A DNA stretch of 64,000 bases from Sedimenticola sp. GTDB lineage: Bacteria > Pseudomonadota > Gammaproteobacteria > Chromatiales > Chromatiaceae. The stretch is taken from NCBI GenBank assembly GCA_026992075.1, contig JALXAM010000010.1, positions 1-64,000 of the forward strand. The letters run 5' to 3'. Below, piece by piece: positions 2,611 to 14,265 of the stretch; the first letter of the stretch is position 1, and every line of letters begins with the position of its first letter. The notes under the pieces were generated by a model that worked only from the letters and a program-made list of their open reading frames with translations, was not told where the DNA came from and did not search any database. Made by a program: the position numbers and the translations under genes.

Positions 2611-4320
2611 TCAGCCCGCCAGGAGATAGAGCAGCACCAGGTTCCCCAGTGCCAGCAACGCCGCCAGCCCTTTCCAGAAAGCGAGAGGATTGCGCTCCAG
2701 CAGCGGTTGGCCCGTGGTCTCCAGGAAGGCGGGGTTGGGTTTCGAAAGGTCGTAGAGAAACTCCGAGAGGGTGTCGTACCGTTTCGACGGATCGGGGTGC
2801 ACCGCCTTGCGCAGGGCGCCGTCCACCCAGGGCTGGATCTGCGGGTTCCAGCGGCGGGCGGAGATGTAGCTGCGCCGCTTGCGTGCCGACCGCTGGCTGT
2901 CGTGCTCTCCATAGGGCAGGTGGCCGGTGAGCAGCTCGTAGGCGATGACTCCCAGGGAGTAGATGTCGGAACGGTTGCTGCACTGGCCTTCGAAGCATTC
3001 GGGGGCGCCATAGTCCAGGGTGGCCTGTGGGGTGTCCCGGTCGTAGCTGCTGGCGATCTCGGCGGTGCCGGCCACCCGGGTGGAGCCGAAGTCGATGATC
3101 TTCAGGGTGCCGTTGCGGTCGATGAGAATGTTCTCCGGCTTGAGATCGAGATGGATCATCTCCAGCCGGTGGAAGGCGCGCAGGCCGTCGGCGATCTGCT
3201 GCAGGAATTCCCGCGCCTTGTTGATATGAGTCTGCGGATGGTCGTCTATCCACTGGCGCAGGCTCTGTCCCTCCACGTATTCCGAGACGTTGTAGAGAAA
3301 GCGCCGGCGCGGCGTCTCCAGCACCTTGAGCACGTGCGGGTTGTTGATGCGCCGTCCCACCCACTCCTCGTGGAGAAAGGCTTCCAGGAAGGCGGGATCG
3401 TCCCGGTAGTTCTCCGAGGGTACCTTCAGGATCACCTTTTCGCCGCTCTTTTCATCCCGCGCCAGGAACACCTCGCTGCGCTTGGAGGCGTGCAGCTCGC
3501 GCAGCAGCTCGTAGCCGTCGAGCTTCATGCCAGGCTGCAGGGGCGGCGGGAAAGGCAGCTCGGTGATCTTCTGCAGTATGTCGTCCTCGGTCTGTTCGGG
3601 CAGCGAGAGCACCCGCAGCAGCTGGCAAGTGACATTGTCGTGGCTGCCGCTGGTGAGCGCCTCTTCCATGATGCGCTGGGCGCAGGCCTGGAGGTTGTCG
3701 CCGTGTTCCTGCAGAAGCTGGCGTAACCGGTTGTCTGTGAGATAGCCGGTGACCCCGTCGGTGGTGAAGAGGAAGAGGTCGCCCGGCTCCACCGCCAGGG
3801 TGCGGTAGTCGATGTCCACGTGGGCGTCGATGCCCATGGCGCGGGAGAGAAAGTCGCGCTCCTTCGACACCCAGACGCGGTGGTCTCGGGTGAGCCGCTC
3901 CAGCTCGCCGTCACGGAACAGATAGAGGCGGGAATCGCCCACGTGAAAGAGGTGGGCGGTGGTGGACTTGATCACCAGCCCGGTGAAGGTGGTGACCATG
4001 CCCCGGGCCGAATCGTAGCGCATCTGCCCCTGGGACCAGAGCCAGCGGTTGAGGGCGCCCAGCACCTTGGTGGCGGCGGTCTTCACCGTCCAGGAGTCCG
4101 GGGTGCTGAAATAGTCCTCCAGGAAACCCTTGACGCAGAGCTGCGCCGCCTCCACGCCCCCCTCGGAGCTGCTCATCCCATCGCAGATCGCCGCCGCGAT
4201 GCCTTTGTTGCGCAGTGCGGTTTCGCTACGCGGAACCAGCGCATCCGCCGCGTCGGCATTCTCGGCCTTGTCGCCTTTCTCGCTGGCGGCGGCGTAGTCG
4301 ATGGAGAGTTTGCTGGCCAT
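2611..4320 (-). CDS. Bifunctional PP2C-type phosphatase / Ser-Thr protein kinase
   Basis: This 569-aa fusion has an N-terminal PP2C phosphatase (about residues 1-250; metal-binding ICDGMSS, HVGDSR, TTDGV and SHDN motifs) and a C-terminal Hanks-type kinase (about 280-540). Kinase residues are present: K299, the catalytic loop HLDLKPEN with D392, and DFG at D410. A single C-terminal helix (about 545-567) anchors it in the membrane. This architecture is found beside nitrate transporters in nitrate-assimilation loci, as in Pseudomonas where it lies between nasA and nirB. It follows nasA on the same strand after 141 bp that contain a palindromic repeat. ATG 4320 was chosen because the conserved domain starts there; the frame stays open to 4386. 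Its substrate is unknown. Confidence 0.88.
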   Translation of the reverse strand: MASKLSIDYAAASEKGDKAENADAADALVPRSETALRNKGIAAAICDGMSSSEGGVEAAQLCVKGFLEDYFSTPDSWTVKTAATKVLGALNRWLWSQGQMRYDSARGMVTTFTGLVIKSTTAHLFHVGDSRLYLFRDGELERLTRDHRVWVSKERDFLSRAMGIDAHVDIDYRTLAVEPGDLFLFTTDGVTGYLTDNRLRQLLQEHGDNLQACAQRIMEEALTSGSHDNVTCQLLRVLSLPEQTEDDILQKITELPFPPPLQPGMKLDGYELLRELHASKRSEVFLARDEKSGEKVILKVPSENYRDDPAFLEAFLHEEWVGRRINNPHVLKVLETPRRRFLYNVSEYVEGQSLRQWIDDHPQTHINKAREFLQQIADGLRAFHRLEMIHLDLKPENILIDRNGTLKIIDFGSTRVAGTAEIASSYDRDTPQATLDYGAPECFEGQCSNRSDIYSLGVIAYELLTGHLPYGEHDSQRSARKRRSYISARRWNPQIQPWVDGALRKAVHPDPSKRYDTLSEFLYDLSKPNPAFLETTGQPLLERNPLAFWKGLAALLALGNLVLLYLLAG

Positions 4321-4365
4321 GGGGGTTACCACAGAGACGCAGGGGGGTTCACTCAGACAACCAGC

Positions 4366-4447
4366 GTAGGTTAGGCAAAGGCGCATGGCGCCGTGCCCAA
4401 CATTTTTCCCCTGTCTTGTTGGGGAGGCTTCGCTTTGCCCAACCTAC
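4366..4447. repeat. Palindromic repeat, family A copy 2
   Basis: Inverted ends GTAGGTTAGGCAAAG (4366-4380) and CTTTGCCCAACCTAC (4433-4447) match family A copy 1. The element fills most of the spacer between nasA and the kinase gene. It could form a hairpin in the mRNA and lower kinase expression relative to nasA (inference). Confidence 0.75.
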
Positions 4448-4461
4448 CAGAGCCGATTGTG

Positions 4462-5934
4462 TCATTTCACCTCGATCATCTGCACCGTACCGTCCGGCAG
4501 CACCTCGGCCATGGCCTTTTCCGGCTCTTCCAGGAATATGAGAATGAGCAGGAAGACGATACCGGACACGGCGCCGATGAACAGGAAGAACTGGTCATAG
4601 TCGATGAGCGAGTTGACGGTAAGAAAGAGCACCGCACCCACGTTGCCGAAGGCGCCCGCCATGCCGGCGATCTGGCCGGTCATGCGCCGCTGGATCAGGG
4701 GCACCATGGCGTAGACCGCACCCGAGCCGGCCTTGGAAAAGATCCCACCCACGATGGTCATGGCCACCACCATCCACACCGGCCAGCTCTTGTCCACCAG
4801 TCCCAGCACCAGGAAGGCGCCGGTGATGCCGGCGAAGACGATGATCAGCGTCAACTTGCGGCCGATGCGGTCTGACAGCCAGCCGCCGCCGGGACGGGCG
4901 AAGAGGTTCAGGAAGGGGTAGATCCCCGCCAGCAGCGCAGCGGTCACCTTGGATATGCCGAACCAGTCCACGTAGAACATGGCCAGCATGGAGACCACCG
5001 CCAGCTCGGTGCCGAAGGTGACCAAGTAGGCCCAATCCAGTATGGCCACCTGCTTGAACTTGTAGCGGTGCAGTTCGGGTACCGGCTTTTTCAGCACGTG
5101 GGCGTTCATGTGCCACACCTTCCAGCTCTGCACCAGGAAAATGATTCCCAAAATGCCGTAGATGATGTCTGCGGTGGCCCAGTCGATGAGCCCCATCTTG
5201 GCTGGGGAGAGCTTCCAGGTGAGCAGCCCCAGCGCAAGATAGAGAGGGATGTTCATCAGGATGTAGAGCACCAGGTCGCCACCGCTGGTCACCTCCATGG
5301 CGCCGGTCTTCTTGGGCTTGAAATAGGTGGAGCCCTTGGGGGTGTTGCGCACCGAGAAGTAGTAGAGCACCCCGTAGCCGATGGCCACCAGGCTGGCGAG
5401 GGTGAAGGCCCAACGCCAGCCATCTTCGCCGCCCACCCAGCTGGCGATGAAGGGCAGCGTCATGGCCGCGCCGGCCGAGCCGAAGTTGCCCCAGCCGGCA
5501 TAGATTCCCTGGGCGATGCCGGTCTGCTTGGCGGGAAACCACTCGCCGATCATGCGGATGCCCACCACGAAGCCGGCGCCGATGAAGCCGGACAGGAAAC
5601 GCAGCAGCGCCAGCTGCTGGTAACTGTCGGCCCAGGCGAAGGCGATGCTGATGGCGCCCCCAAGGATCAGGATGGCGCTGAACAGGATGCGGGGGCCGTA
5701 GGTGTCCACCAACATGCCCACCACGATGCGCGCCGGGATGGTGAGAGCCACGTTGAGGATCAGCAGCACCTTGGCCTGCTGATCGGTGAGTTCCAGGGAT
5801 TCCTTGATGAAGGGCATCATGGGCCCCAGCCCCAGCCACACCACGAAGGTGAGGAAGAAGGCGAACCAGGTGAGATGGAGGATGCGGATCTTGCCGCTGA
5901 AGGAGAACAGGTTGAGCTTGGTGTCCGTGGTCAC
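4462..5934 (-). CDS. nasA: Nitrate/nitrite transporter, MFS NarK/NasA family
   Basis: This 490-aa inner-membrane protein belongs to the nitrate/nitrite porter branch of the major facilitator superfamily. It has about 12 hydrophobic helices, the signature GIYAGWGNFGSAGAAM (first glycine-rich nitrate motif) and a second one near KAGSGAVYAMVPL; conserved arginines in TIPARIVVG and FARPGGGW fit nitrate binding. The start is GTG at 5934 with GAGGAG about 9 bases upstream. It opens an operon with the kinase/phosphatase and is divergent from nirB. A sigma-54 promoter matching the full consensus sits 46 bp upstream, so nitrogen-limitation control is expected. Its role here is most likely nitrate uptake for assimilation. 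Confidence 0.93.
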   Translation of the reverse strand: MTTDTKLNLFSFSGKIRILHLTWFAFFLTFVVWLGLGPMMPFIKESLELTDQQAKVLLILNVALTIPARIVVGMLVDTYGPRILFSAILILGGAISIAFAWADSYQQLALLRFLSGFIGAGFVVGIRMIGEWFPAKQTGIAQGIYAGWGNFGSAGAAMTLPFIASWVGGEDGWRWAFTLASLVAIGYGVLYYFSVRNTPKGSTYFKPKKTGAMEVTSGGDLVLYILMNIPLYLALGLLTWKLSPAKMGLIDWATADIIYGILGIIFLVQSWKVWHMNAHVLKKPVPELHRYKFKQVAILDWAYLVTFGTELAVVSMLAMFYVDWFGISKVTAALLAGIYPFLNLFARPGGGWLSDRIGRKLTLIIVFAGITGAFLVLGLVDKSWPVWMVVAMTIVGGIFSKAGSGAVYAMVPLIQRRMTGQIAGMAGAFGNVGAVLFLTVNSLIDYDQFFLFIGAVSGIVFLLILIFLEEPEKAMAEVLPDGTVQMIEVK

Positions 5935-5979
5935 TGTGGATGCTCCTCATGGATACAACTCGAATTTTCCGATAACGCT

Positions 5980-5995
5980 AGCAACATGCGTGCCA
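5980..5995 (-). promoter_or_regulatory. Sigma-54 promoter for nasA
   Basis: Read on the minus strand the site is TGGCACGCATGTTGCT, an exact match to TGGCAC-N5-TTGCW. The -12 base falls at 5981, predicting transcription from about 5969, some 35 bases before the nasA GTG. Confidence 0.82.
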
Positions 5996-6071
5996 TGGAT
6001 TTCTCCTCGTGCAAAACCTTGGGGTCCGGCAGGAAAAAGCCGGCTTTTTTCAAGTCTTCAGGAGATTGGGC

Positions 6072-6088
6072 TGCACCGTTTCGGAAAC
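6072..6088. promoter_or_regulatory. Weak second NtrC-like half site
   Basis: TGCACC followed after 5 bases by GGAAAC: one good NtrC half site and one poor one, 42 bp from the perfect site at 6114-6128. Paired NtrC sites are common in enhancers, so this may be the low-affinity partner. Confidence 0.35.
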
Positions 6089-6113
6089 GGATGATGAGGA
6101 CGAAAGGAGGTGG

Positions 6114-6128
6114 GCACCAGATTGGTGC
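6114..6128. promoter_or_regulatory. NtrC-type enhancer site
   Basis: GCACC-N5-GGTGC is a perfect palindrome matching the core of the NtrC consensus TGCACC-N5-GGTGCA. It lies between two divergent sigma-54 promoters, centred about 131 bp upstream of the predicted nirB start and about 152 bp upstream of the predicted nasA start. Those are ordinary enhancer distances. Confidence 0.72.
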
Positions 6129-6225
6129 GAGTTGCTCGGGTCGGAGATCTGTAAGGGCGGGAAATGTATCGCGAGGGGTTTTTAACCATTTGTAGGAAAA
6201 GCAAAAATTCTCGTATCCAATCAGT

Positions 6226-6241
6226 TGGCAAGAGTCTTGCT
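6226..6241 (+). promoter_or_regulatory. Sigma-54 promoter for nirB
   Basis: TGGCAAGAGTCTTGCT matches TGGCAC-N5-TTGCW with one mismatch and the correct GG-to-GC spacing. It predicts a start near 6252 and a 58-base leader before the nirB ATG. The leader contains a short hairpin (AGAG...CTCT, about 6274-6291). Confidence 0.78.
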
Positions 6242-6310
6242 TAAGGGTGCCGCAAGGTATCGACAAGAGTCCCGAAAGGCTCTGCAGCAAGTCCAGAAAG
6301 AGGAATCCCG

Positions 6311-8746
6311 ATGAAAGAACGACTGGTACTGGTCGGCAACGGCATGGCCGGCGTGCGCACCCTGGAAGAGCTCCTGAAGCTCGCACCGGAGGAATACGAG
6401 ATCACCGTGTTCGGCGCCGAGCCCTATCCCAACTACAACCGCATCATGCTCTCTCCGGTGCTTGCGGGCGAGAAGACCATCGACGACATCATTCTCAACG
6501 ATCGCAACTGGTACGAGGAGCATGGCATCACTCTGCACACCGGGGATCCGGTGGTGGAGATCGACCGGGTGAACCGCAAGGTGGTCTCCCGGTCCGGCCT
6601 GGAGGTGCCCTACGACCGGCTGCTGCTGGCCACCGGCTCCAACCCCTTCATCATCCCCGTGCCCGGCTCCGACCTGCCCGGCGTGCTTGGTTTCCGGGAC
6701 ATCGCCGACGTGGACGCTATGCTCGAGGCTTCGAAAAAATACAAGAAGGCGGCCGTCATCGGTGGGGGGCTGCTGGGGCTGGAGGCGGCCAACGGCCTGA
6801 TGCAAAACGGCATGGAGGTCACCGTAGTGCACCTGATGGACATCCTCATGGAGCGCCAGCTCGACCGCACTGCGGCGCAGCTGCTGAAGAGGTCGCTGGA
6901 GGAGCGTGGCATGAAATTCCTGATGGAGGCCCAGACTGCCGAGGTGCTGGGTGAGGAGCGGGTCACCGGCCTGCGCTTCGCCGACGGCTCCGAGCTGGAG
7001 GCCGACCTGGTGGTGATGGCGGTGGGAATCCGCCCCAACATCGAGCTGGCGCAGAAGGCGGGCCTCTACTGTGAGCGGGGCGTGGTGGTGAACGACACCA
7101 TGCAGACCTATGATCCCCGTATCTATGCGGTGGGTGAGTGCGTGCAGCACCGCGGCCAGACCTATGGCCTGGTGGCGCCCCTGTTCGAACAGGCCAAGGT
7201 GGCGGCCAACCACCTGGCGCGTATCGGCATCGCCCGCTACGAGGGGTCGGTGACCTCCACCAAGCTGAAGGTGACCGGCATCGATCTCTTCTCCGCTGGC
7301 GAGTTCAACGAGCAGCCGGGAGACGAGACCCTGGTGTTGCAGGACCCCGCCCGTGGCGTCTACAAGAAGCTGGTGGTGCGCGACGACCGTATCAAGGGTG
7401 CGGTGCTCTATGGCGACACCATCGACGGCACCTGGTATTTCCAGCTGCTGCGGGAGGGCACCGACATCTCCGACTTCCGCAACACCATTCTCTTTGGTCA
7501 GCATGATCTGGGGGATGCCGGCCATGGAGACGAGACCCGGGTGGCGGCCCTTTCCGACGACGCCGAGATCTGCGGCTGCAACGGCGTCACCAAGGGGCAG
7601 ATCGTGGATGCCATCCAGACCCAGGGGCTCTTCACCCTGGACGAGGTGCGGGCCCACACCAAGGCCTCGGCCAGCTGCGGCTCCTGCACCGGCCTGGTGG
7701 AGGCGATCCTGGCCAGCACCGTGGGCGAGGGCTACGAGGCGCAGCCGAGCAAGAAGCCCATGTGCGGCTGCACCGACTACAGCCATGACGAGGTGATCAA
7801 GGCGATCAAGGAGCAGGAGCTGAAGAGCCTGCGCGCGGTGATGGACTTCCTGGAATGGAAGACCCCCGATGGCTGCGCCAGCTGCCGGCCCGCCCTCAAC
7901 TACTACCTGCTGGCCTACTGGCCGGAGGAGTACCACGACGATCCCCAGTCGCGCTTCATCAACGAGCGGGCTCACGGCAACATCCAGAAGGACGGCACCT
8001 ACTCGGTGGTGCCGCGCATGTTCGGCGGTCTCTGCACGCCGGATCAGCTGCGCGCCATCGCCGACGTGGCCGACAAGTACCAGGTTCCCGAGATGAAGGT
8101 CACCGGCGGCCAGCGCATCGACCTCTTCGGCGTGAAGAAGGAGGATCTGCCGGCCATGTGGAAGGATCTCACCGATGCCGGCTTCGTCTCCGGCCACGCC
8201 TACGGCAAGGCATTGCGCACGGTGAAGACCTGCGCCGGCAAGAAGTGGTGCCGGTTCGGTACCCAGGACTCCACCGGCCTGGGGGTGAAGCTGGAGGAGC
8301 TCACCTGGGGCTCCTGGATGCCGCACAAGTTCAAGCTGGCCGTCTCCGGCTGCCCGCGCAACTGCGCCGAGGCCACCATCAAGGACTTCGGCGTGGTCTG
8401 CGTCGATTCGGGCTACGAACTGCACGTGGGCGGCAACGGCGGCATCAAGGTGCGCGTCACCGACCTCTTGTGCAAGGTGGAGACCGAAGAAGAAGTGCTC
8501 GAATACTGTGGCGCTTTCATCCAGCTCTACCGCGAGGAGGCCCACTACCTGGAGCGCACCGCCCCCTGGGTGGAGCGCGTGGGCCTGAGCTACATCAAGG
8601 AGCGTATCCTGGAGGACGAGGAGGGCCGCAGGGCGCTCTACGATCGCTTCAAAGTGAGTCAGAAATATGCCCAGGTGGATCCCTGGAAGGAGCGGGCCGA
8701 AGGCGGCCAGGCGCACGAGTTCCGGCCTCTCAAGCTGACTGCCTGA
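6311..8746 (+). CDS. nirB: NADH-dependent nitrite reductase, large subunit
   Basis: This 811-aa cytoplasmic enzyme reduces nitrite to ammonium with NADH. An N-terminal FAD/NADH domain (VLVGNGMAGVRTLEEL; second dinucleotide motif AVIGGGLLGLEAA) is followed by a BFD-like [2Fe-2S] region (ICGCNGVTKGQIVDAI, CGSCTGLVE), then the ferredoxin-like and sirohaem domains. The sirohaem/[4Fe-4S] ligands are C641 and C647 (TCAGKKWC) and C681 and C685 (SGCPRNC). Length is normal for NirB. GAGGAA precedes the ATG. It heads a transcript with nirD and is driven by a sigma-54 promoter, pointing to an assimilatory role. Confidence 0.96.
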   Translation: MKERLVLVGNGMAGVRTLEELLKLAPEEYEITVFGAEPYPNYNRIMLSPVLAGEKTIDDIILNDRNWYEEHGITLHTGDPVVEIDRVNRKVVSRSGLEVPYDRLLLATGSNPFIIPVPGSDLPGVLGFRDIADVDAMLEASKKYKKAAVIGGGLLGLEAANGLMQNGMEVTVVHLMDILMERQLDRTAAQLLKRSLEERGMKFLMEAQTAEVLGEERVTGLRFADGSELEADLVVMAVGIRPNIELAQKAGLYCERGVVVNDTMQTYDPRIYAVGECVQHRGQTYGLVAPLFEQAKVAANHLARIGIARYEGSVTSTKLKVTGIDLFSAGEFNEQPGDETLVLQDPARGVYKKLVVRDDRIKGAVLYGDTIDGTWYFQLLREGTDISDFRNTILFGQHDLGDAGHGDETRVAALSDDAEICGCNGVTKGQIVDAIQTQGLFTLDEVRAHTKASASCGSCTGLVEAILASTVGEGYEAQPSKKPMCGCTDYSHDEVIKAIKEQELKSLRAVMDFLEWKTPDGCASCRPALNYYLLAYWPEEYHDDPQSRFINERAHGNIQKDGTYSVVPRMFGGLCTPDQLRAIADVADKYQVPEMKVTGGQRIDLFGVKKEDLPAMWKDLTDAGFVSGHAYGKALRTVKTCAGKKWCRFGTQDSTGLGVKLEELTWGSWMPHKFKLAVSGCPRNCAEATIKDFGVVCVDSGYELHVGGNGGIKVRVTDLLCKVETEEEVLEYCGAFIQLYREEAHYLERTAPWVERVGLSYIKERILEDEEGRRALYDRFKVSQKYAQVDPWKERAEGGQAHEFRPLKLTA

Positions 8747-8777
8747 AGTGCCTTGTGGGCCCCTGCAGGCCCCGCCA

Positions 8778-8930
8778 TTCTTAGCGGGGCGTTCGCCGGC
8801 TGCGAAAATCCACAGGATTTTCGGTCCGGCTCACCCCTGCTGCCGAAACCCCGCCAACGAGGACCGGCCAACGGCCTGCCAGACTGGATGCGGGGTTCGT
8901 CGGGCTGAAGCCCGGCCTACAGGGGCGAGC
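8778..8930. repeat. Cluster of small inverted repeats between nirB and nirD
   Basis: The 223-bp spacer holds CCCCGC(8 nt)GCGGGG, a hairpin terminator-like element without a T-tract, then AAAATCC-aca-GGATTTT, and a segment ending CGGGCTGAAGCCCGGCCTAC that resembles another common short palindromic repeat family. No gene is seen here. The hairpins could stabilise the nirB message end or act as REP sequences. Confidence 0.5.
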
Positions 8931-8969
8931 AGAGAAACGAAGAATCGAAACCAAACTGGAAACAACCCA

Positions 8970-9278
8970 ATGAGCAACTGGAAAGAAGTAGCCAACCTGG
9001 AAGAGATACCCAAGCTGGGATCCCGTGTGCTGGAAACCGACCAGGGCCGCATTGCCCTGTTCCGCACCAGCGATGACGAAGTGTTCGCCCTGCGGGATGC
9101 CTGCCCGCACAAACAGGGTCCTCTTTCGCAAGGAATCGTGGCAGGCCACACGGTGACCTGTCCCCTGCACAATTGGAAGATCGACCTGGAATCGGGAGAG
9201 GCGCTGGCGCCCGACGAGGGTTGTACCAATGTTTACCCGGTAAAGGTGGAATCCGGGGTGGTCTTTCTGCAACTATGA
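8970..9278 (+). CDS. nirD: Nitrite reductase small subunit, Rieske type
   Basis: This 102-aa protein is the small subunit of NADH-dependent nitrite reductase. It is a Rieske-fold domain with a complete [2Fe-2S] ligand set: C45-P-H47 and, 16 residues on, C64-P-L-H67. The classical enterobacterial NirD lacks these ligands, so this version should carry a real cluster. The ATG at 8970 gives the family's usual length. It follows nirB after a repeat-filled spacer, and a CBS-domain gene follows 42 bp later. Confidence 0.9.
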   Translation: MSNWKEVANLEEIPKLGSRVLETDQGRIALFRTSDDEVFALRDACPHKQGPLSQGIVAGHTVTCPLHNWKIDLESGEALAPDEGCTNVYPVKVESGVVFLQL

Positions 9279-9320: not shown

Positions 9321-9770
9321 ATGCTCGTTAAGGACATCATGACCAAGGGCGCCCGCACAGTGCATGAGGACACCCCCATAAAAGAGGTTGCTTCCCTCAT
9401 GTGTCTCTACCGCTACAGCGGGCTGCCGGTGGTGGAAGGTGAAGACAAGCTGATCGGCTTCATCGCCGAGAAGGATGTGCTGGCCCAGCTCTTTCCCAGC
9501 GTCGAGGACGCCATGGAAGGGATGACCACCATCGACCTCAAGGAGAAGGTCAAGGAATACGGCGACATCCTCAACCGCAAGGTGGGTGACCTCATGACCC
9601 GTGGGGTGCGCACCGTCTCCCCCGACATGCCCATTCTCAAGGCCGCCATCATCATGGCCAACAATCGTTTTCGGCGCATTCCCGTGGCCGAGGGCGATCG
9701 CCTGGTGGGCATGCTCAGCCTGGGGGACATCCACAAGGCGATCTTCCACAAGAGCCTTACGGAAGGGTGA
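9321..9770 (+). CDS. Two-CBS-domain protein
   Basis: This 149-aa cytoplasmic protein consists of a pair of CBS domains (about residues 1-60 and 85-148), each starting with a VxDIMTKGxRTVxxDxPI-type strand and ending in LIGFIAEKDVL or LVGMLSLGDIH. CBS pairs bind adenine nucleotides and act as energy or ion sensors. GGAGGAGG sits just upstream of the ATG, predicting strong translation. It lies between nirD and the nitrate reductase gene on the same strand, suggesting a regulatory link to nitrate assimilation, but nothing in the sequence identifies a partner. Confidence 0.88.
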   Translation: MLVKDIMTKGARTVHEDTPIKEVASLMCLYRYSGLPVVEGEDKLIGFIAEKDVLAQLFPSVEDAMEGMTTIDLKEKVKEYGDILNRKVGDLMTRGVRTVSPDMPILKAAIIMANNRFRRIPVAEGDRLVGMLSLGDIHKAIFHKSLTEG

Positions 9771-9972: not shown

Positions 9973-12177
9973 ATGCTATTCGGACGCACCAAGAAGAACC
10001 CCATCAAGCTCCCCGACAAGCAGGTGGTGGAGTGGAAATACGCCGCCTGCGGCTACTGCTCCACCGGCTGTTCCATCGAGGTGGGTTTCAATGCCGAAGG
10101 CAAGCCGGTGTCCACCCGCGGGGTGGCGGATGCCGACGTCAACCGCGGCAAGCTGTGCCTGAAGGGCATCTTCGAGCACGAGTTGTTCGAATCGGCGGGA
10201 CGCGGCACCGAGCCTTTGATCCGCGATCACTACCGTGACCAATGGCGTCCCATCGACTGGGATTCCGCCCTGGACAAGCTGCACGACGAGATTCGTCGCA
10301 TCCAGGCCAAGCATGGACGCGACAGTTTCGCCATCATCTCCACCGGACAGATGCTCACCGAGGAGTTCTACACCCTGGGCAAGCTTACCCGCGGGCTCAT
10401 CGGCACCAACAACTACGACGGCAACACCACCTTGTGCATGTCGTCTGCGGTGTCGGGCTACAAGCGCAGCTTCGGCTCCGACGGCCCACCCGGCTGCTAC
10501 GAGGACTTCGAGCACACCGACTGTCTCATCGCCTGGGGCTCCAACCTGCCGGAGCAGCACCCCATCATCTACTGGCGTCTCAAGGAGGCCCAGGAGAAGC
10601 GCAACTTCCCGCTGATCGTGGTGGACCCGCGGGTGACCATGCTGGCGCAGAACGCCAACATCCACCTGCCCATCCGCCCCGGCACCGACGTGGTGCTGCA
10701 GAACGCCCTGATGCATGTCATCTTCGCGGAGAACCTGCAGGACGACGACTACATCGCCGCCAACACCACCGGCATCGACGAACTGCGCGCCGAGGTGGAG
10801 AAGTGGGACCCCCGCACCGCGGCCAAGGTCTGCGGCATCGACGAGGACACCATCCGGGTGGTGGCGCGCACCTTCGCCAAGGCGCCGGCGGCGATGCAGA
10901 TCTGGACCATGGGCATCAACCAGTCCACCCACGGTTCCGACGGGGTGGTGGGGATCAACAACCTGGCACTGATCACCGGCAACATCGGCAAGCCGGGCGG
11001 GACCTCGCTGTCGATCACCGGCCAGTGCAACGCCATGGGCACCCGCGAATGGTCCTCCTGCTCCGGCCTGCCCAACTACCGCTACCTGGAGGTGCCGGAG
11101 CACCGCGAAGAGATCGCCAAGGCCTGGAACATCGACGTGGAGTTCCTGCCCAAGGCGCGCGGCATGTATCAGACCGACATCTACCAGGCGATGGAGGCGG
11201 GGCAGATCAAGGGCCTGTGGCTCATCGCCACCAATCCCATGAGCTCCCTGCCCAACACCGCGCGCATCCGCCGCGCCATGGAGCAGCTGGAGTTCTGCTG
11301 CGTGCAGGACTGTTATGTGGACACCGAGTCCAACCAGTACGCCCATCTCTATCTGCCCGCCGGCACCTGGGCGGAGAAGGACGGGGTGATGACCAACACC
11401 GAGCGGCGCATCAACCGGGTCAAGCCCATCACCACGCCGCCAGGCCAGGCCAAGCCCGACCTGTGGATCTTCAACCGGGTGGCGGAGCGCTTCAACAAGG
11501 AGGGAAGGGTGAAGTTTCCCGAGAAGGCGGCGGACATCTTCCTGGAAATGGCCGAACTCTCGCACGGACGGCTGTGCGACATCTCCGGCATGGACCACGA
11601 GCTGATCGAACAGAACCGCGGCATCCAGTGGCCCTACACCCGCGAGCAGCGCGAGCGCGGCGAACCGCCACCCAAAGGCGGCAAGCGTATCTACACCGAG
11701 CCGGCCAGCTTCAGTTACCCGGACGGAAGGGCCAGGCTGATCCCGCTGCCCTTCGTGGACAACAACGAGCAGCCCGACGAGGAGTATCCCTTCTGGCTCA
11801 ACACCGGGCGGCTCATCGAGCACTGGCACGGCCGCACCAAGACCGGCAAGATCGGCAACAACAACAAGTTCAGCCCCATCCCCTTCATCGAGATCAACCC
11901 GGACGCGGCGGAAGACCTGGGGATACGGCGCGGCGAATACGTGCGCCTGGTCTCCCGGCGGGGGGATGCCATCGCCATGGCCCAGCCCACCGGGCGGGTG
12001 CCCTACAACATGGTGTTCCTGCCCTTCCACTTCCACGACTGCGCCAACCGTCTGACCCTGGGGCTGCTCGATCCCCACTCGCGCCAGCCGGCCTACAAGC
12101 AGTCGGCGGTGCGCATCGACCGCATCGAGGACCAGCTCCACGCCGCGCGGTTGAGTAAGGAGATGCGGAAGTTTTGA
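9973..12177 (+). CDS. Molybdopterin nitrate reductase catalytic subunit
   Basis: This 734-aa DMSO-reductase-family enzyme has an N-terminal [4Fe-4S] site (C26, C29, C33, C62) and a cysteine molybdenum ligand C155 in LCMSSAVSGYKRSFG, as in NapA/NasC-type nitrate reductases. The N-terminus lacks a twin-arginine or Sec signal, so it should be cytoplasmic. Neighbours (nasA, nirBD, mobB) make assimilatory nitrate reduction the likely role. The next gene encodes a fused ferredoxin/DmsC-like membrane subunit, a partner unlike the NADH or flavodoxin systems of classical Nas enzymes. The gene name is left open because it could also be called nasC or narB. Substrate assignment rests on motif and context. 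Confidence 0.85.
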   Translation: MLFGRTKKNPIKLPDKQVVEWKYAACGYCSTGCSIEVGFNAEGKPVSTRGVADADVNRGKLCLKGIFEHELFESAGRGTEPLIRDHYRDQWRPIDWDSALDKLHDEIRRIQAKHGRDSFAIISTGQMLTEEFYTLGKLTRGLIGTNNYDGNTTLCMSSAVSGYKRSFGSDGPPGCYEDFEHTDCLIAWGSNLPEQHPIIYWRLKEAQEKRNFPLIVVDPRVTMLAQNANIHLPIRPGTDVVLQNALMHVIFAENLQDDDYIAANTTGIDELRAEVEKWDPRTAAKVCGIDEDTIRVVARTFAKAPAAMQIWTMGINQSTHGSDGVVGINNLALITGNIGKPGGTSLSITGQCNAMGTREWSSCSGLPNYRYLEVPEHREEIAKAWNIDVEFLPKARGMYQTDIYQAMEAGQIKGLWLIATNPMSSLPNTARIRRAMEQLEFCCVQDCYVDTESNQYAHLYLPAGTWAEKDGVMTNTERRINRVKPITTPPGQAKPDLWIFNRVAERFNKEGRVKFPEKAADIFLEMAELSHGRLCDISGMDHELIEQNRGIQWPYTREQRERGEPPPKGGKRIYTEPASFSYPDGRARLIPLPFVDNNEQPDEEYPFWLNTGRLIEHWHGRTKTGKIGNNNKFSPIPFIEINPDAAEDLGIRRGEYVRLVSRRGDAIAMAQPTGRVPYNMVFLPFHFHDCANRLTLGLLDPHSRQPAYKQSAVRIDRIEDQLHAARLSKEMRKF

Positions 12178-12378: not shown

Positions 12379-14265
12379 ATGTTCAAGAGAAGAGAGAACG
12401 AACCCGAATATGCCTTGCTCAACGATCCGGTGAGCAAGGAGCGCAACCGTTACGGCAAGCCCATCGAGACGGCGCCGGAGGGAAGCCCGCTGCGGGAGCA
12501 GCCTTTCGTCATCAACGGCGAAGAACTGCCCCAGCAGAATCCCAACCGCTACAAGCAGCATGGTTTCTACTTCAACGCCGACAACTGCATCGCCTGCCAC
12601 GCATGCGAGGCCGCTTGTTCGGAGAAGAACGACGTGCCGCCGCACCTGGCGTTTCGTTCGGTGGGCTTCGTGGAGGGGGGCAGTTATCCCGACTATCGGC
12701 GCATCAACATCTCCATGGCCTGTAACCACTGCGACAACCCGGTCTGTCTCAAGGGCTGTCCCACCCGCGCCTACACCAAGTTCGCCGAGTATGGCGCGGT
12801 GTTGCAGGATCCGGACATCTGTTTCGGTTGTGGCTACTGCACCTGGGTCTGCCCCTACAACGCGCCCCAGCTCGACCCGGTGAAGGGGCAGGTGACCAAG
12901 TGCAACATGTGCGTGGACCGACTGGAGGTGGGGCTCAAACCCGCCTGCGTGGCCGCCTGCCTGGGCAAGGCGCTCGATTTTGGCGTGATCGAGAACATCC
13001 CCGAAGGGCGGGTGCAGGCGGAGACCGAGATCCCCGGCTTTCCGCGCACCGACATCACCCACCCAAACATCCGTTTCCAGCAGATGAAGTCGATCCAGCG
13101 GGAGATGGTGCGGGTGGACGACACGCCGGTGAAATACCACCGCGCAGAGGACGAGAAACACTATGAGCCGGAGCTGGATCCCAAGAAGGGCCATCGGCGT
13201 CAATGGAACTGGAAGAAGCTGCTCGGCTCCCATGAGAACGCCCATATCGCCTTTACCTTGAGCGTACAGACGGTGATGGGCGCCTTCGCCCTTATGGTGC
13301 TGGGTAGCTGGTTCGATGTGGCACCGATCCGTCAGCTGCAGGACACTGGTGCCTGGCTGCCCACCCTGGGCACCATGGTGGTGCTCATGGCCTTCGGCCT
13401 GTTCAAACTCAACATGCACCTGGGCAAGCCGCACCGCTTCTACCGTGGTTTCTACAACCTGCGGCTGTCGCCGGTGAGTCGGGAGATCGCCGGGGTGTCG
13501 CTCTTCTTCGCCGGCCTGGTGGGCTACGCCTTTTTCAGTCTGTTCCAGGCCGACTGGGCGCTGGTGTTACAGAACCTGATGGCCGGCCTGGCGCTGGCGG
13601 GCCTGGCCTTCGGCGGCTACTACATGTACAGGCTCTATCGCATCCCGGCGCGTCCCTTCTGGGATCACTGGCAGACTGGCGCCAACTTCCTGGGTACCGG
13701 TCTGACCCTGGGCAGCCTGCTGCTGGCGCTGATGGCCATGGCCTTCGGAAGCCTGGCCGAAGATACCCTGCGCCTGCTGGTGGCAGTTTCGGCTTTCGGC
13801 CTGCTGCTGGAAGGGGTGGGGTTGGTGGCCCACGCCCGGGCCATGAGCGATGCCCGCAGTGAAGGCGCCGCTTCCTGGTACGAACAGGTGACCACCTATG
13901 GCTGGCCCTATCGGCTGCGTAACGGGCTATTGGCGGGCGCGCTGCTGCTGTCGGGCTGGATCGCATTCCACGGTGGTTCGCCGCTGTTGCTGCTGTTACT
14001 GGCGGTCATGGCGCTGGCCTCGGCCATCATCGGGCGGGCGCTCTTCTATGTGCTGGTGATCCCCACCACCATGCCTGGTGCCTTCTTCTGGCGCAACAAG
14101 GGCTTCGTGGAGCACGCCAGGGAAGTGGGCTTGGCGGAGATGCCGCAGCTGGGGGTGGTCTATGAACGCCATCACCCCTTCCGGTTGGACGAGTTGTGGC
14201 AGACCATCCGCGAGACCAGCCTGCAGCAGAAGCTGGATCAGTTCCGGCGCATCTTCACCGGTTGA
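12379..14265 (+). CDS. Fused DmsB-like ferredoxin and DmsC-like membrane anchor
   Basis: This 628-aa protein joins two normally separate subunits. Residues about 60-225 carry four ferredoxin-type cysteine groups (CIACHACEAAC, CNHCDNPVCLKGCP, CFGCGYCTWVCP, CNMCVDRL...CVAAC), as in DmsB/NrfC. From about residue 290 to 560 there are about eight hydrophobic helices in the pattern of the DmsC quinol-oxidising anchor. The likely job is to pass electrons from the quinone pool to the catalytic subunit encoded just upstream. The start lacks a good ribosome-binding site; ATG 12379 is the only sensible one. Its 3' end overlaps the convergent GGDEF/EAL gene by 28 bp. The reading frame is continuous across the fusion, so this is not an assembly join I can detect. 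Confidence 0.85.
   Translation: MFKRRENEPEYALLNDPVSKERNRYGKPIETAPEGSPLREQPFVINGEELPQQNPNRYKQHGFYFNADNCIACHACEAACSEKNDVPPHLAFRSVGFVEGGSYPDYRRINISMACNHCDNPVCLKGCPTRAYTKFAEYGAVLQDPDICFGCGYCTWVCPYNAPQLDPVKGQVTKCNMCVDRLEVGLKPACVAACLGKALDFGVIENIPEGRVQAETEIPGFPRTDITHPNIRFQQMKSIQREMVRVDDTPVKYHRAEDEKHYEPELDPKKGHRRQWNWKKLLGSHENAHIAFTLSVQTVMGAFALMVLGSWFDVAPIRQLQDTGAWLPTLGTMVVLMAFGLFKLNMHLGKPHRFYRGFYNLRLSPVSREIAGVSLFFAGLVGYAFFSLFQADWALVLQNLMAGLALAGLAFGGYYMYRLYRIPARPFWDHWQTGANFLGTGLTLGSLLLALMAMAFGSLAEDTLRLLVAVSAFGLLLEGVGLVAHARAMSDARSEGAASWYEQVTTYGWPYRLRNGLLAGALLLSGWIAFHGGSPLLLLLLAVMALASAIIGRALFYVLVIPTTMPGAFFWRNKGFVEHAREVGLAEMPQLGVVYERHHPFRLDELWQTIRETSLQQKLDQFRRIFTG

Follow-up and report, generated by a model that had tools for sequence, protein, structure and literature searches.

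Divergent sigma-54 promoters under the control of one activator are already established, and the arrangement of narK and nirB analysed here belongs to that known kind. The nifF and nifLA promoters of Klebsiella, described by Minchin, Austin and Dixon in 1988, are reportedly such a pair. In Desulfovibrio vulgaris, the available part of the account of orp1 and orp2 describes two divergent sigma-54 operons that are synchronised by one enhancer-binding protein acting on palindromes in the spacer (PMC3897727). For genes of nitrate assimilation, the available portions of the literature report that deletion of ntrC in Pseudomonas aeruginosa lowers nasA 650-fold and nirB 137-fold (PMC7214821), that nas, nir and narK are predicted targets in the NtrC regulons of Proteobacteria (PMC5343134), that an NtrC site lies upstream of nasT in Paracoccus (PMC5424462) and, in a review, that a sigma-54/NtrC-dependent nalA leader RNA and NasT antitermination operate ahead of nirBD (PMC12830290). 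No description of a shared narK/nirB enhancer was found in the open-access literature searched, to the extent that these texts were available, and this is weak evidence of absence. The zraP/zraSR genes were considered as a precedent and dropped, as the source table, in its available part, does not show them to be divergent.

The locus lies in a stretch of 64,000 nucleotides (the window), in which 376 bp separate narK on the minus strand from nirB on the plus strand. Facing narK, the minus strand reads TGGCACGCATGTTGCT from 5995 to 5980, an exact TGGCAC-N5-TTGCW match (12/12); facing nirB, the plus strand reads TGGCAAGAGTCTTGCT at 6226-6241, with one mismatch to the same consensus (11/12). The GG and GC dinucleotides, their fixed spacing and the surrounding consensus mark both as sigma-54 sites of the -24/-12 type, with the GC of the -12 element at 5981-5982 on the narK side and at 6239-6240 on the nirB side. 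Between them is the main NtrC dyad, GGCACCAGATTGGTGCG, at 6113-6129 (centre 6121, no strand), within which GCACCAGATTGGTGC at 6114-6128 forms a perfect GCACC-N5-GGTGC palindrome. All three elements read as the original prediction had described them. It also noted a weaker half site 42 bp away, and this is present as TGCACC at 6072-6077, within a candidate partner site at 6072-6088, although the distance to the dyad is 41 bp, start to start, rather than 42; the narK -12 element is 98.5 bp from it.

At NtrC-activated promoters a GCACC-N5-GGTGC dyad typically lies some 100-150 bp upstream of the sigma-54 site. The window dyad has this placement relative to both promoters, its centre being 118.5 bp from the -12 element on the nirB side and 139.5 bp from that on the narK side. 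The usual form of the enhancer is a tandem pair of NtrC sites, as at glnA; the window has one strong dyad and the half site at -41, with a matrix score of only 0.5, and a second full NtrC site is missing. Transcripts from sigma-54 promoters begin about 12 nt beyond the GC. Judged from the promoter positions, narK transcripts would be expected to start near 5969-5970 and nirB transcripts near 6251-6252, which leaves a predicted nirB leader of only about 59 nt. Likely ribosome-binding sites are at 5943-5948 (narK) and 6300-6305 (nirB). A terminator-like hairpin on the plus strand (6026-6043, with a T run to 6053) lies between the narK promoter and the dyad; it showed no conservation in the genus alignment and was dropped as part of the mechanism. 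The one Rfam match around the spacer, to IRES_Bag1, was below threshold and was put down to chance.

On the minus strand, the spacer is bordered by a gene for a NarK/NasA-type MFS nitrate/nitrite transporter (4462-5934, GTG start at 5934; MFS_1), called nasA in the original prediction, which scores 308.7 bits against TIGR00886, just below the cut-off of 311.7. Downstream of narK is a gene for a fused PP2C phosphatase/Ser-Thr kinase (2611-4386, minus strand; PP2C_2 and Pkinase domains), which, from gene order, would be carried on the narK transcript; operon membership on both sides of the spacer is presumed on the same grounds. The plus strand carries nirB, for the nitrite reductase large subunit (6311-8746, ATG at 6311; TIGR02374, 1003.5 bits against a cut-off of 578.35), and nirD, for the small subunit (8748-9278; TIGR02378, 98.8 bits against 74.65; Rieske_2), whose true start is probably downstream of 8748, since the family match begins at residue 77. 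Then follow genes for a two-CBS-domain protein (9321-9770, plus strand; PF00571 in two stretches) and for a molybdopterin oxidoreductase that has Pfam molybdopterin domains and resembles the assimilatory nitrate reductase NasC (9973-12177, plus strand), with 473.5 bits against NF047855 (NasC; cut-off 1100) and 536.5 against Fdh-alpha (cut-off 666.25), both below cut-off. After the reductase gene, 12379-14265 encodes a 628-aa protein in which a DmsB-like ferredoxin is fused to a DmsC-like membrane anchor, and it is conceivable that the two genes specify a quinol-linked assimilatory nitrate reductase.

The transporter itself varies among relatives. In one genus member (G013, locus L016) nirB is 93% identical to that of the window and narK 61%, and at L063, from a more distant genome, the values are 87% and 89%. 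This suggests that narK of G013 was replaced by a distant homologue, that is, a transporter swap beside a conserved promoter region. At two other loci (L034 and L113) no narK match separates the kinase/phosphatase gene from nirB, and the two genes diverge directly across about 250 bp.

Conservation, and not the count of motifs in the window, carries the case for the sites. The genus sample comprised 15 genomes, 13 with nirB; the other two (G003 and G007), which had weak NirB matches only, were excluded. In all 13 spacers narK was divergent, both sigma-54 sites matched at 10 or more of 12 positions and the dyad core GCACCA-N3-TGGTGC was intact, so that the failure of conservation in close relatives named in the original prediction as grounds for refutation was not observed. 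The strongly conserved blocks in the 13-row alignment were essentially both promoters, the dyad and the ribosome-binding sites. The nearest named records carry the labels Sedimenticola sp., Thiolapillus brandeum, Chromatiaceae or Gammaproteobacteria, and nearly all are metagenome bins.

Genus and named genomes together yielded 43 unique divergent narK/nirB spacers. The nirB-facing site was found in 42, the narK-facing site in 42, both in 41 and a dyad matching at 9 or more of 12 positions in 41; all three elements occurred in order in 39, and four spacers were without at least one. Among 8600 shuffles each promoter alone appeared in 0.9% and the permissive dyad in 19.6%, and no shuffle had both promoters. 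The NtrC matrix was built from these 43 spacers, so its scores there are circular, and a class-wide set served as the independent check. Among 274 class genomes, 94 had a homologue of the kinase at E <= 1e-60, the genome of the window being one of them, and loci from 80 of the 94 were fetched. Kinase and narK were divergent from nirB at 29 of these loci; no narK was seen at 19, and no divergent nirB at 32, where narK nevertheless had a sigma-54 site in 20 cases and a dyad above threshold in 15. Two of the 29 were dropped, one identical to a training spacer (L150) and one near to one (L148). The remaining 27, all outside the training set, had both promoters in 22 cases, the dyad in 23 and all three elements in 19 (8 incomplete), and the 5400 corresponding shuffles gave 0, 61 and 0, respectively. 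With a fixed consensus at 11 or more of 12 positions, the dyad was present in 18 of the 27, vs. 0.7% of shuffles. Upstream regions of nirB that had no divergent narK numbered 62; a sigma-54 site was found in 39, 33 of them with a dyad, and 23 had no promoter match.

The proposal that NtrC and sigma-54 control both transcripts is thus well supported at the level of sequence, as the elements were kept in 13/13 genus spacers and in most class-wide spacers, and both NtrC and RpoN are encoded. We consider it probable that the spacer is a divergent NtrC/sigma-54 control region whose dyad can loop to either promoter. Under nitrogen limitation, NtrC-phosphate would bind the strong dyad at 6113-6129; a second dimer might be weakly bound 41 bp away, followed by oligomerisation. 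Bound NtrC would then loop to either of two outward-facing sigma-54 polymerases, opening the nirB promoter on the right, whose -12 element is 118.5 bp away, and the narK promoter on the left, at 139.5 bp. Nitrate uptake, together with the kinase/phosphatase, and nitrite/nitrate reduction would be expected to rise in concert. NtrC binding and the activation of both promoters are predictions from these elements, and the use of the main dyad by narK is proposed because the genus spacers show no further conserved site that resembles one for an activator.

Distances from the dyad to the two promoters were compared by measuring from the dyad centre to the GC of the -12 element, with one value per sequence cluster. 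Phase tests scanned periods from 10 to 11.5 bp. Values of R are quoted for distances up to 200 bp, and spacers were thinned by sequence similarity only, so that relatedness remains in all of them. On the nirB side of shared spacers, distances clustered at about 96, 107-108 and 118 bp, with R = 0.65 at an 11-bp period (n = 47); the class-wide set alone gave R = 0.59 (n = 18). Where each gene stood alone, R was 0.58 for nirB (n = 26) and 0.81 for narK (n = 9), at nearly equal phases (8.3-8.5), and the dyads of lone narK genes were mostly 63-108 bp from the promoter. On the narK side of shared spacers R was 0.14 at T = 11 (n = 30) and 0.37 at T = 10. The 200-bp limit removed, in shared spacers, 6 of 53 nirB distances and 22 of 52 narK distances and, where a gene stood alone, 2 of 28 distances to nirB and 1 of 10 to narK. 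With these included, R at T = 11 was 0.62 (nirB) and 0.15 (narK) in shared spacers, and 0.55 (nirB) and 0.68 (narK) where the gene stood alone. In the class-wide set all 20 narK distances gave R = 0.40 at T = 10.8, and weak phasing of narK to the main dyad is possible.

Across 60 spacers the median distance was 108 bp on the nirB side and 187 bp on the narK side, narK being the further of the two in 52. The window distances of 118.5 and 139.5 bp both fit the comb within about 1 bp. When the two promoters were tested for a common phase with each other, R was 0.12 at T = 11 and rose to 0.40 (z 9.8) at T = 11.5. Because its distances to nirB form a comb and those to narK are variable and largely unphased, the main dyad looks like the enhancer of nirB, borrowed by narK: it appears to be docked mainly to nirB through helical phase, with a looser distance to narK. 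In many of the longer spacers of relatives, narK has a separate dyad, about 86 bp (8 turns) away from the promoter. Phase itself is not new, since sigma-54 enhancers at qrr genes tolerate insertions and deletions of 10-11 bp according to the available part of one report (PMC4740811); the fresh point is its one-sidedness in a shared spacer.

The original prediction held that one enhancer serves both transcripts. This fits the genus, in which a second, narK-proximal dyad at threshold was found in 0 of 13 spacers, both at 83-91 bp and in a wider range of 60-125 bp; because no such dyad passes threshold there, a single dyad for both promoters is likely in the window's genus, but unproven, as it is reached by elimination. 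It does not extend to relatives as a general rule, and many have a dyad for each promoter: among 64 spacers with both promoters (genus included), 21 had a dyad 83-91 bp from the narK -12 element, at a shuffle rate of 0.5%, and with the phase to narK unclear, narK may be a loose borrower of the main dyad rather than its equal client. The narK-proximal dyad was rarer where the promoters were close, in 2 of 20 pairs at 260 bp or less vs. 19 of 44 above (Fisher p = 0.01, uncorrected for relatedness). The half site of the window could be a weak narK site, as it lies 98.5 bp from the narK -12 element. In the genus, TGCAC[C/T]GTT occurs 41 or 42 bp from the dyad in 5 of 13 spacers and is absent in 8, and in those five members it tracks the dyad and not narK; the narK -12 element of G002 is 241.5 bp away from it. 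Over the 43 spacers the mean NtrC score was raised 31 bp narK-ward of the main dyad (z 5.8 among offsets tested), with only 3 of 43 spacers scoring above 3 and no such partner site in the window. NtrC half sites 13 bp nirB-ward of the main dyad were seen nine times in the shared spacers of relatives, the commonest single offset.

These observations can be drawn together, tentatively and at somewhat less than even odds, as an asymmetric bidirectional enhancer. The dyad would be phase-locked to nirB at about 9, 10 or 11 turns, and narK would be a distant, unphased borrower. Lineages would switch between two-enhancer spacers, in which a second dyad lies about 8 turns from narK, and compact spacers with one enhancer. 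The two polymerases would then have to share a single activator nucleus, with reduction favoured over uptake.

Much of the same evidence bears on an alternative that we regard as unlikely, in which both promoters are real and the dyad serves nirB only, while narK is activated either by NtrC, acting from solution or at weak sites (the half site at 6072 being an example), or by another enhancer-binding protein. Phasing that is evident towards nirB and not clearly towards narK speaks for it, as do the phased dyads of lone narK genes and the narK-proximal dyads of 21 of the 64 shared spacers; yet in all 13 genus spacers the narK sigma-54 site was kept with no proximal dyad at threshold. Its candidate weak site is suitably placed in the window, 98.5 bp from the narK -12 element, but is absent from 8 of the 13. 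Other NtrC-family-like activators are encoded, which also speaks for this alternative; against it, the narK distance of 139.5 bp in the window falls within about 1 bp of the nirB comb.

Both NtrC and RpoN are encoded in the genome. NtrC scores 710 bits against a curated cut-off of 558.6 and is the sole match above it, and RpoN scores 491.9 bits against 277.35. Relatives of this NtrC among solved structures include 1dc7, nitrogen regulation protein NR(I) (receiver domain), and 5m7n, labelled nitrogen assimilation regulatory protein, which is similar over the whole length of NtrC. About ten further NtrC-family-like sigma-54 activators are encoded, all below the NtrC cut-off. No ANTAR protein was found in the genome of the window (G000, 99.98% complete) by a search that was positive in 13 of 55 genomes; within the window's genus, one was detected in 1 of 15 genomes and none was detectable in 14. 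The 14 named control genomes gave none, so that relatives are the only positive control for this search. That none was detected in the genome of the window points to general control by nitrogen, with no antitermination of the NasT type.

The abundance of such activators, together with the failure to detect an ANTAR-type nitrate regulator, leaves room for a second alternative, in which the protein at the dyad is not NtrC but another activator of its family that recognises a similar motif, such as one specific for nitrate. We judge this improbable. The motif derived from relatives, nGCACCAnnnTGGTGCn, is identical to the NtrC consensus, and a similar dyad is found at another promoter of the same genome. 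There, an exact sigma-54 site, whose -12 element is 97.5 bp from an NtrC-like dyad, precedes a gene for an OM-type protein; next in line are glnK- and amtB-like genes, identified by eye from their translations. This sigma-54 site and dyad serve as an internal positive control.

That site is one of five exact sigma-54 matches in the 2.73-Mb genome (one in the reversed-pattern control); the relaxed pattern TGGCA-N6-TTGCW occurs 16 times (control 3), both window sites included. Two of the five (L006 and L008, on contigs C28 and C49) precede proteins with PEP-CTERM-like C-termini, and another (L009, contig C58) is directed at the gene for an ABC substrate-binding-type protein, which diverges from a response-regulator-like ORF, these assignments being made by eye. 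The sequence GCACCANNNTGGTGC is found at four places in the genome (control 0), the other three inside ORFs. Within the window, the sigma-54 pattern with up to one mismatch was found 4 times vs. 2.65 +/- 1.59 expected (26 of 100 shuffles reached 4), and the dyad pattern with up to one mismatch 14 times vs. 6.13 +/- 2.47 (2 of 100 shuffles reached 14). The dyad count is somewhat above chance, with a single copy in the narK/nirB spacer and two other exact copies within ORFs; the sigma-54 count is near expectation and proves little, and window counting was rejected as proof. That count is what would favour the view that one or both sigma-54 matches are chance and that sigma-70 promoters drive the genes, a view we hold to be very improbable, as both sites were kept in 41 of 43 and 22 of 27 spacers, no shuffle had both and, as weak evidence given the 0.2 expected there, a search of 5900-6350 found no sigma-70-like site.

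If the shared control region is real, a single nitrogen switch couples the uptake of nitrate to the reduction of nitrite across a broad set of gammaproteobacteria, for many of which the record titles point to no source other than metagenome bins or symbiosis with animals. What deserves testing is the asymmetry of the enhancer. The spacers of relatives, some with one dyad and some with two, and with their phases measured, already form a naturally occurring series in which to test how DNA looping apportions an enhancer to a pair of promoters.

Among described systems, the Klebsiella nifF/nifLA region is reportedly similar in having two divergent sigma-54 promoters, activator sites in the spacer and nitrogen control; it is said to differ in serving nitrogen fixation genes and in having NifA sites as well, whereas nitrate transport and reduction are served here. 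The orp1/orp2 spacer likewise has two divergent sigma-54 operons and palindromes between them, but, in the available part of that account, its activator is DVU2106 and not NtrC, IHF is shown to be required and the genes are unrelated (PMC3897727). The reconstructed NtrC regulons name alpha- and betaproteobacteria for these genes, and the portion available mentions no shared enhancers (PMC5343134). Unlike the nalA-leader system, as outlined in the accessible part of the review (PMC12830290), the window has a predicted nirB leader of only about 59 nt. Pseudomonas aeruginosa, in the excerpt available, possesses nasT and nasS, whereas the window genome has no detected ANTAR protein; the same kinds of genes are nonetheless involved, as nasA and nirB/nirD/PA1779 are strongly lowered in ntrB and ntrC deletions (PMC7214821).
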